The notes under the pieces are model-generated. The model was not told the origin of the DNA, made no database searches, and saw nothing but the letters and a program-made list of their open reading frames with translations. From Melioribacteraceae bacterium (lineage in GTDB: Bacteria > Bacteroidota > Ignavibacteria > Ignavibacteriales > Melioribacteraceae): 64,000 nucleotides of DNA. Both the position numbers and the translations under genes were made by a program. Location of the stretch: the NCBI GenBank assembly GCA_021740785.1, contig JAIOZI010000011.1, positions 1 to 64,000 of the forward strand, written 5' to 3'. Positions 51,401 through 54,146 of the stretch are shown here, in pieces; the stretch's first letter is position 1, and each line of letters begins with the position of its first letter.

Positions 51401-51805
51401 ATGACATTTATTGAATGGACAGAAAATGAAAGCGTGAGAATAAAAGAGATTGATGTCCAGCATAAAAATATTGCTGATATCATTAATCGACTTTACTTTA
51501 CAATTGGAACGAATAGAACGAATGAAGCCATAAGCTTAATGAAAGAACTGATGGAAGAATTGGAAGTACACTTTGAAACAGAAGAAAGACTGATGAAAGA
51601 AAAGAAATATGTAAACTTCTTTTCTCATAAAATGGAACACGATAGATTACTAAAAAAAGTATACGATTTTTATGATCAAATGACCGGCAGCAAAGTAATG
51701 CTGAATCTTGAATTTGCCAAGTCACTTAAGAATTGGTTCTTTAATCACATCGAATTGAATGACAAAAAATGCGGTGAGTATCTCTATTCGCACGGACTGA
51801 GATAG
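51401..51805 (+). CDS. Bacteriohemerythrin
   Basis: A 134-residue di-iron oxygen-binding protein. All seven ligands are present: H21, H57, E61, H76, H80, H116 and D121. The motifs are DVQHKNI, HFETEERLM, HKMEHDRL and HIELNDKKCG. It probably stores or senses oxygen, or protects oxygen-labile enzymes. The short GGAG precedes the ATG, and comF follows immediately. Confidence 0.93.
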   Translation: MTFIEWTENESVRIKEIDVQHKNIADIINRLYFTIGTNRTNEAISLMKELMEELEVHFETEERLMKEKKYVNFFSHKMEHDRLLKKVYDFYDQMTGSKVMLNLEFAKSLKNWFFNHIELNDKKCGEYLYSHGLR

Positions 51806-51827
51806 TATAAATCAATCTGAGGGATTT

Positions 51828-52517
51828 ATCAGTAAACAACTATTAAAATCTTTTTCCGTTTTTTTTCTTCCGAGAATTTGTGTTGCGTGTGATTCGAAAT
51901 TAAATATCACCGAACACATCATCTGCACAAAATGTAACGATGAGATTGAAACCGCACCAGCCGATCTGATAAACTCCGAATTTGAAAGAAAATTTAAGGT
52001 AGAGAAAATTGTAAGTGATTTTCGAAGTCTATACATTTTTCATAAAGAGGGCGTGCTTCAAAATATTATTCATACTTTAAAGTACAATGGCAAATTTAAA
52101 GTGGGACTATATCTAGGCGGTTTGCTCTCACAAGAATTTTCCGATACGATTACTGAATGGAAGATCGACTATATCATTCCGGTTCCACTACATACATTGA
52201 AAAAGAGTGAGAGAGGATACAATCAATCATATTATATCTCGAAAGGTCTTTCTAAAAAAACAGGTATCCCGGTTGTTAAAAATTTATTAAGCAGAAATCG
52301 ATATACATCTACTCAAACAACACTCAATAAACAAGATAGAAAATTAAACATTGAAGGAGCTTTCAGGGTAAAATCAAAAAGAAATTTGAAATCAAAAAAC
52401 ATATTAATCTTAGATGACGTTGTAACAACCGGGGCAACCACACTGGAATGTGCGCGTCAGATTAAAAAACTCGGGGCAGATAAAATATTTGTAATATCAG
52501 TTGCTTTAGCCGAATAG
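51828..52517 (+). CDS. comF: ComF-family phosphoribosyltransferase with a non-canonical start
   Basis: A 229-residue protein if translation starts at ATC 51828 after GAGGG (51819-51823). The first ATG/GTG/TTG in frame is GTG 52053, which would remove the family's N-terminal zinc ribbon. The frame is open from 51801, and 51855-51935 encodes FFLPRICVACDSKL ... IICTKC, the typical CxxC-CxxC zinc ribbon of ComF. The C-terminal part has HTLKYNGK, the phosphoribosyltransferase pattern PVPLHTLKKSERGYNQS and the PRPP loop ILILDDVVTTGAT. ComF is required for DNA uptake during transformation. A rare start codon, a point mutation of ATG, or coupling to hemerythrin translation are all possible. Confidence 0.75.
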   Translation: MSKQLLKSFSVFFLPRICVACDSKLNITEHIICTKCNDEIETAPADLINSEFERKFKVEKIVSDFRSLYIFHKEGVLQNIIHTLKYNGKFKVGLYLGGLLSQEFSDTITEWKIDYIIPVPLHTLKKSERGYNQSYYISKGLSKKTGIPVVKNLLSRNRYTSTQTTLNKQDRKLNIEGAFRVKSKRNLKSKNILILDDVVTTGATTLECARQIKKLGADKIFVISVALAE

Positions 52518-54146
52518 TTACATTCTTTCCGGTGCGGTTAATCCTAAAATTGTTAGTCCGTTTTTAATAACTATTTTAACAGCCTTTACTAATGCAATCC
52601 TAGCTTCAGCCAGTTCCTTTCCTGAACCTATAATTCGGCAGTCGGTATAAAATTTATGAAATGCTGCGGCAAGTTCTTCAAGATAGTTTGCTAAACGCTG
52701 TGGTTCATATTGATCGATCGCAACATTTAATTCATCCTTAAATTGATGCATCTTTTTAATGAGATTCTGTTCGGAAGGATGAGTTAACAATTCCAGATTT
52801 TGAAAAGAACTCTTCAATCCTTCTTCTTCTGTCATTCGTAAAATAGAACAAATTCTTGCATGAGCATATTGAAGATAGAAAACCGGGTTTTCATCGGACT
52901 GTTTTCTTGCCAGGTCAATATCAAAATTCAAATGGCTGGAGATATTCCTCATAATAAAAAAGTACCTTACAACATCACTGCCAACCTTCTCAATTAATTC
53001 ATCCAGAGTAATGAAGTTTGCTTTTCTTGTAGACATTTTAACAACTTCACCGTTTTCCAAAACCGTAACAAATTGATGAATCAACACTTTCACTTTTTGC
53101 TCATCATAACCCAATGCCTTCACTCCTGCTAATACATCCGGATATGTTGCCGCATGATCAGACCCGAATAAATCAACAATTATATCATATCCCCTTTCAA
53201 ATTTCGTAAGATGATATGCAATATCCGGGAGCCTGTATGTCGGCTCCCCTGTCGATTTAACAATTACTTTATCATTCTCTTGCTCAAGCTCACTGAGCCT
53301 GAACCATATTGCGTTATCTTTCTCATAAGAAAGATTTGATTCTTTTAACCTATTGAGAACATCATCAATTTTTTTATCTTCATATAGTGTATGTTCGTTG
53401 AAGTAATTGTCAAATCTAATTCCAATTCCTTTCAATGTATTTTGAATTTCCGTAAAAATTTCTTTTTCTGCAAAATCTTTGAAAAATTCGATTGAGCTTT
53501 GTCCTGTATCAACAGATTTATTTTCAGCATATAATTTTTTTGCGATATCAATTAAATATTGACCTTGATAATAATCTTCCGGGAAATCAATATCTTCACC
53601 CTTTAATTGTAGATAACGAAGCCGCAATGAATCGCCAAGAACCCGCATTTGACGACCCGCATTATTAAAATAATATTCACGTTCAACATCGTAACCAGCC
53701 CATTCCAGAAGGTTTGCAACCGTATCACCAATAACTGCATTCCTACCATGACCAACTGTTAAAGGTCCGGTTGGATTTGCTGATACAAATTCAACTAATG
53801 CTTTTTTTCCCTTGAAGCGGTCGGATTTACCGAATGATTCATCTTCTTCATTAATTCTATTAATTATATTTGCCAGGAATTCCGGTTTAAAAAGAAAATT
53901 AATAAAACCCGGTCCGGCAATTTCAATCTTATCGATAATATTTTTATCGACTTCAAAATTATCAACAATTTCTTGGGCAATTTCTCTCGGATTTCTTTTA
54001 AGTTTTTTTGCCAGCAGCATTGCCGCATTCAAAGCTAGATCACCATGACTAGCAATATTCGGAACGGAAAATGTCAACTCTATTTCTTTCAGGTAAGGTA
54101 ATTTTGAGGCAAGCTTATCAAATGAATTTTCTAAATACTCTTTCAA
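52518..54146 (-). CDS. argS: Arginyl-tRNA synthetase
   Basis: A 542-residue class I synthetase. The N-terminal additional domain is followed by the HIGH-type motif in VEFVSANPTGPLTVGHGRNAV, then RLPDIAYHLTKFERGYD and VKMSTRKANFITLDEL in place of KMSKS. The C-terminal anticodon-binding helices end GLTILGLTAPERM. The start is TTG at 54146 with GGAG eight bases before it. It is downstream of rsfS and convergent with comF. Confidence 0.95.
   Translation of the reverse strand: MKEYLENSFDKLASKLPYLKEIELTFSVPNIASHGDLALNAAMLLAKKLKRNPREIAQEIVDNFEVDKNIIDKIEIAGPGFINFLFKPEFLANIINRINEEDESFGKSDRFKGKKALVEFVSANPTGPLTVGHGRNAVIGDTVANLLEWAGYDVEREYYFNNAGRQMRVLGDSLRLRYLQLKGEDIDFPEDYYQGQYLIDIAKKLYAENKSVDTGQSSIEFFKDFAEKEIFTEIQNTLKGIGIRFDNYFNEHTLYEDKKIDDVLNRLKESNLSYEKDNAIWFRLSELEQENDKVIVKSTGEPTYRLPDIAYHLTKFERGYDIIVDLFGSDHAATYPDVLAGVKALGYDEQKVKVLIHQFVTVLENGEVVKMSTRKANFITLDELIEKVGSDVVRYFFIMRNISSHLNFDIDLARKQSDENPVFYLQYAHARICSILRMTEEEGLKSSFQNLELLTHPSEQNLIKKMHQFKDELNVAIDQYEPQRLANYLEELAAAFHKFYTDCRIIGSGKELAEARIALVKAVKIVIKNGLTILGLTAPERM

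Follow-up and report, generated by a model that had tools for sequence, protein, structure and literature searches.

Where does translation begin in a gene whose conserved amino-terminal domain lies ahead of every ATG, GTG and TTG codon of its frame? The question is raised by comF in the stretch of DNA analysed here (“the window”: 64,000 nucleotides, positions 1 to 64,000 of contig JAIOZI010000011.1 from a Melioribacteraceae bacterium). On the plus strand, the comF frame opens at 51801, directly behind an in-frame TGA, and the first ATG, GTG or TTG that it offers is a GTG lying within the protein (Table 1); an in-frame ATG at 51759 and a GTG at 51774 precede the TGA and are unusable as comF starts. 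The original prediction, made from the DNA alone, held that the frame has no canonical start codon before 52053 and that an in-frame ATC at 51828, following GAGGG, would give a product of 229 residues; the sequence bears out the former, and the ATC, the GAGGG (at 51819–51823) and the product length proved right. Our favoured reading, to which we assign a probability of about three in four, is that comF would be translated from this near-cognate ATC with the help of a compensating Shine-Dalgarno (SD) sequence, giving full-length ComF at a low level behind a hemerythrin gene.

Table 1. Features of the hemerythrin–comF region; positions are those of the window.
Feature	Position	Strand	Basis
Bacteriohemerythrin gene, 134 aa, ATG start, stop codon TAG at 51803–51805	51401..51805	+	PF01814, NF033749
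TGA closing the comF frame upstream	51798..51800	+	sequence
Shine-Dalgarno-like GAGGG; GAGG-to-ATC gap 5 nt	51819..51823	+	sequence
Proposed start codon ATC; first zinc-ribbon Cys 17 codons on	51828..51830	+	position and SD
comF, 229 codons plus TAG (52515–52517)	51828..52517	+	TIGR00201, E 1.8e-34, 119.3 bits
Four-Cys zinc ribbon, CVAC 51879–51890 and CTKC 51924–51935	51879..51935	+	alignment
First canonical in-frame codon, GTG, 75 codons inside the protein	52053..52055	+	sequence
PRPP loop of phosphoribosyltransferase, ILILDDVVTTGATT	52401..52442	+	translation; PF00156 stretch below cut-off

The comF frame and its amino-terminal region

TIGR00201 (comF) was the top family for the window protein in a search of NCBIfam profiles, with a match over profile positions 1–188 of 190; since it is the best family and yet stays below its curated cut-off (119.3 bits against 233.55), we regard the protein, from its profile match, as a relative of the ComF family rather than a curated member. 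All four zinc-ribbon cysteines are present in the arrangement CxxC...CxxC, and a phosphoribosyltransferase (PRTase) domain is recognizable from PF00156 (E 2.2e-5; 24.3 bits, narrowly missing the cut-off of 26.3) and from the loop DDVVTTGATT, the ComFC loop being given as DDIITTGTTL (PMC9005727). A search of solved structures by sequence returned one match, a stretch of PRPP synthetase. The window protein thus has the same four-Cys ribbon and carboxy-terminal PRTase with a PRPP loop as the ComFC/ComF family, and differs from it in its start codon.

The region ahead of the GTG has the appearance of ordinary protein-coding sequence. In 108 aligned frames the four ribbon columns are Cys in 107, 107, 106 and 107, respectively, and the ratio of amino- to carboxy-terminal identity (residues 10–84 versus the rest) is 0.73 for the window protein, which ranks 40 of 83 homologs; from this rank we judge that the stretch before 52053 is evolving as it does in relatives. 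The intact amino-terminal zinc ribbon of the original prediction is thereby upheld, with four Cys kept and conservation like that of relatives. A start at GTG 52053, to which a gene finder limited to ATG, GTG and TTG would resort, shortens ComF to 154 residues and loses the zinc ribbon; for Helicobacter pylori ComFC, the zinc finger and the PRPP-binding domain are each described as essential in vivo (PMC9005727).

The canonical-codon gap is by itself not very improbable: given a combined coding frequency for ATG, GTG and TTG of 4.2% in this genome, a run of 84 codons lacking all three is expected in about 2.8% of cases for any one gene, and what matters is the place of the gap over a conserved domain. 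We scanned 375.6 kb, about 7.7% of the genome (contig C26, which contains the window, and 280 kb of C34), with a codon model and obtained 309 gene-like frames; in none but comF did the coding signal extend 12 codons or more upstream of the first canonical start. The power of this survey was 198/209 for extensions of 75 codons, 149/209 for 40 and 69/209 for 20, so that it misses genes with a short extension, infC among them.

Start codons of comF in the window and across the order

For comparison, comF frames were taken from 145 of the 150 genomes of the order with a comF match, leaving out the partial matches of G041, G061, G079, G116 and G139; removal of L115, in which the Cys pattern failed, and of L203 and L227, which are cut by contig ends, gave 142 frames. 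The start position was counted in the 69 order-wide frames that have only one canonical codon before the first ribbon cysteine (Cys1), a tally of the codons nearest to −16 being biased, and this single codon lies 15 to 18 codons ahead of Cys1 (−15 to −18) in 56 of them. ATC 51828, at −17, falls inside this cluster and has GAGG at a gap of 5 nt, so that an AUH codon (AUU, AUC or AUA) and an SD are found together at the family start position. Its position, its SD spacing, its likeness to infC and the comF precedents set out below support ATC 51828 as the best start for comF, in agreement with the prediction that it follows GAGGG at a workable distance.

A 4-nt SD is a modest signal, with a chance match of about 6%, and random 8-codon windows of contig C34 hold an AUH codon paired with an SD in 5.8%. 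Because canonical comF frames have a 4-nt match in only 17/102 cases (23/136 in a larger set), the SD at AUH comF starts looks like compensation. A search of the assembly for 16S rRNA, from which the anti-SD might be read, gave no match, and RNA folding around the comF start site was unremarkable (z −1.12 and −0.67).

Between −10 and −30, ATG is found in 87 of the 142 frames, only GTG or TTG in 49, and none of the three in 6. Three frames lack a canonical codon anywhere before Cys1, namely that of the window and those of G090 and G094, and all three have ATA or ATC with an SD at −16 or −17; among the remaining 139 frames, 10 have such an ATH-plus-SD pair between −13 and −20 (Fisher p = 0.0006, rising to 0.007 when the two sister species count once). 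Under a looser rule (no canonical codon from −10 to −30) the counts are 4/6 and 9/136 (p = 0.0006, rising to 0.004 when the sister species count once); both comparisons were framed after the cases had been seen. G090 and G094, sister species of another genus, have a common ATA at −16 that follows AAGGAG and overlaps the TAG of hemerythrin; two separate base errors are an unlikely source of a codon common to both. Between L102 and L103, the 22 codons from the ATA to the first canonical codon hold 2 synonymous and 2 non-synonymous changes, and the further 207 codons 41 and 36, the former counts being too few to be decisive. G005, perhaps a precedent from a third genus, has ATC-ATA at −17/−16 behind GAGGTGA, plus a TTG at −8 as a possible start.

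Two further frames, from G073 and G155, have neither a canonical codon from −10 to −30 nor an AUH codon or SD; each keeps a TTG at −8, and G073 also has a GTG at −31. They weigh against our reading, as start-poor comF frames arise in other ways too, perhaps through error, decay or misassembly. The G155 frame (L216) has GTA at −16 and an out-of-frame ATG just before, and the G073 frame (L111) has TCG at −17; these two may be errors or broken starts, or may begin at a late TTG or at an even odder codon. The AUH label (four frames including G005) requires 3 changes on a comF tree built from 90 rows, without L015 and 17 distant loci, and the placement of the window on this tree is not firm. At this position in relatives, near-cognate codons recur in G090 and G094 (ATA) and possibly in G005, whereas 136 of the 142 frames have a canonical codon from −10 to −30.

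L086 and L091 of genus g49 were considered as further near-cognate starts and dropped, an upstream TTG being common to both. L113 (G068) has an in-frame CTG one base past the hemerythrin TGA, behind AAAAGGGG, and ATG and TTG codons are also found upstream of it.

The gene ahead of comF encodes a bacteriohemerythrin, matching PF01814 (4.1e-12) and NF033749 (6.8e-30) over both cut-offs. A hemerythrin gene is found upstream of comF in the window and in 53 of 60 distinct frames of the same family, with ends often touching or overlapping; in the 14 frames tested from other families of the order, no hemerythrin gene was seen next to comF. Across the 60 frames with the pair, the hemerythrin stop precedes Cys1 by 35–89 nt in 59 and by 281 nt in one; in the window, 22 nt separate this stop from the ATC. 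In 58/58 hemerythrin loci an ATG stands between 12 codons before and 10 codons after the expected start (2 of the 60 were set aside as cut by contig ends), and on the codons present the comF starts are weaker than those of hemerythrin. Since in most pairs the hemerythrin stop coincides with the comF start or lies close to it, reinitiation by ribosomes terminating at hemerythrin is plausible.

Alternative explanations

A sequencing or assembly error could account for the missing start codon, ATC at 51828 being a single base from ATG; with an error at 51830, the third base of the proposed start, or nearby, the gene would have an ordinary start. The genus of the window is represented by a single genome in the comparison set, and G073 and G155, in which the start region is empty of both canonical codons and AUH-plus-SD pairs, are perhaps examples of error. 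However, we saw no second defect in the window comF, and a random error brings no SD, a feature that few canonical comF frames possess (just 17/102); the ATA of G090 and G094 and the ATC-ATA of G005, each with an SD, suggest moreover that comF has genuine near-cognate starts. We consider a base error unlikely. Initiation at another near-cognate codon of the comF frame, either ATA 51807 or ATT 51876, is a very improbable variant: the ATA lies at −24 without a 4-nt SD match, the ATT immediately precedes Cys1, so that a start there would cost the protein its conserved FFLPR segment, and neither conforms to the cluster at −15 to −18 seen in relatives (56/69).

Equally little credence can be given to a comF in decay, or to a PRTase-only protein of 154 residues begun at GTG 52053; this is the earliest canonical codon, but the 75 codons upstream of it are open, the four Cys are kept and conservation is ordinary (rank 40 of 83), and the activity of H. 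pylori ComFC is described as needing its zinc finger (PMC9005727), which argues against the short protein. The adjacent frames of the two genes also allow for a +1 frameshift near the hemerythrin end, since slippage anywhere from 51801 to the TAG would yield a hemerythrin–ComF fusion. Judged by eye, no known slippery site is visible here, and the hemerythrin of each of the 60 hemerythrin–comF pairs has its own stop, 35–281 nt before Cys1; we regard such a fusion as next to negligible. A frameshifted start inside hemerythrin had been named with the original prediction as an outcome that could overturn it, and on this inspection and these 60 pairs it has nothing in its favour.

Near-cognate starts in infC and other genes

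The closest likeness to the proposed comF start is found in infC of the same genome, where GAGG precedes ATC by 6 nt; the two sites are alike, GAGG-GATTT-ATC in comF and GAGG-TACTAT-ATC in infC, with an SD gap of 5 versus 6 nt. Of the 74 family genomes in which infC was matched, we examined 35 loci (L122–L156; 34 parsed, plus that of G005), and the codon at the start position is ATC or ATT in 35/35, mostly behind an SD of the GAGG or GGAG type; we take these codons to be the infC starts from their position and from general knowledge of infC. No canonical codon occurs up to the conserved motif in 32 of the 34 parsed loci, and the remaining two, one of them from the window's own genome, have a GTG alone, which encodes the Val of the motif itself; the G005 locus (L153) has ATT in the same layout plus an in-frame GTG four codons above. 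The genes differ in that infC encodes IF3 and has ATC or ATT throughout these family loci, whereas comF encodes no translation factor, the trait being seen in 3 or 4 of its 142 frames. Genes with AUU, AUC or AUA starts, infC apart, are rare.

Among them, cvfC1 (AUU) and ccpN (AUA) of Staphylococcus aureus, together with infC (AUA) of that species, are described as having sites with a predicted extended SD, and reporters of cvfC1, ccpN and citZ as giving about 10% of the AUG level in poor medium, ccpN reaching up to 30% in rich medium (PMC13009471). ccpN and cvfC1 resemble comF in joining a near-cognate start to an SD, which is strong in S. aureus. Their starts were shown by initiation profiling and reporters, that of cvfC1 being conserved among Staphylococci and that of ccpN between S. 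aureus and B. subtilis (PMC13009471), whereas the near-cognate start of the window comF is argued from sequence evidence and has a patchy distribution. The pcnB gene of E. coli, with its AUU start, is a chromosomal gene other than infC that is limited by a near-cognate start, as proposed for comF; it is a different gene in a different phylum, and is known here by its description in PMC4245954 and PMC13009471.

If comF is translated from ATC 51828, the initiator fMet-tRNA would read AUC despite the third-base mismatch, and the GAGGG would make up for the weak codon. comF would be the second cistron, and ribosomes ending hemerythrin may reinitiate 22 nt downstream; the product would be a full-length ComF, with four-Cys ribbon and PRTase domain, made at a low level that, like the output of infC, may respond to IF3 activity. 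We infer that initiation at the ATC, low level, translational coupling and IF3 sensitivity may all apply to this locus. The expectation of low output and IF3 dependence is drawn by analogy with ccpN, cvfC1 and infC of S. aureus (PMC13009471) and with in vitro work in which IF3 is described as excluding weak third-base pairs, with initiator drop-off and truncated peptides (PMC10158994). As its proposed start is of the same weak kind as that of infC, ComF is perhaps kept at a low level.

The evidence supports placing the window comF, as a candidate, among the few bacterial genes that begin with an AUH codon. In the literature library searched, judged from titles and the beginnings of abstracts, which make for weak evidence of absence, we found no report of an AUH start for comF, nor any literature joining hemerythrin, ComF and Ignavibacter. 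A broader idea, tentative and in our view rather doubtful, is that comF has repeatedly taken an infC-type start in this family (in two, perhaps three genera), with an AUH codon and a compensating SD beside the stop of hemerythrin, tying ComF and DNA uptake to IF3 and the state of the ribosome; if true, the IF3 regulon would extend beyond infC to a competence gene. Weak starts recurring in comF beside an ATG-started hemerythrin offer a natural comparison for when weak starts persist, and the same lineage comparison also bears on whether IF3 controls genes besides its own.

At the other end of the gene, the comF stop (52515–52517) touches the end of a convergent minus-strand gene at 52518–54146, presumably argS-like, with zero intergenic bases.
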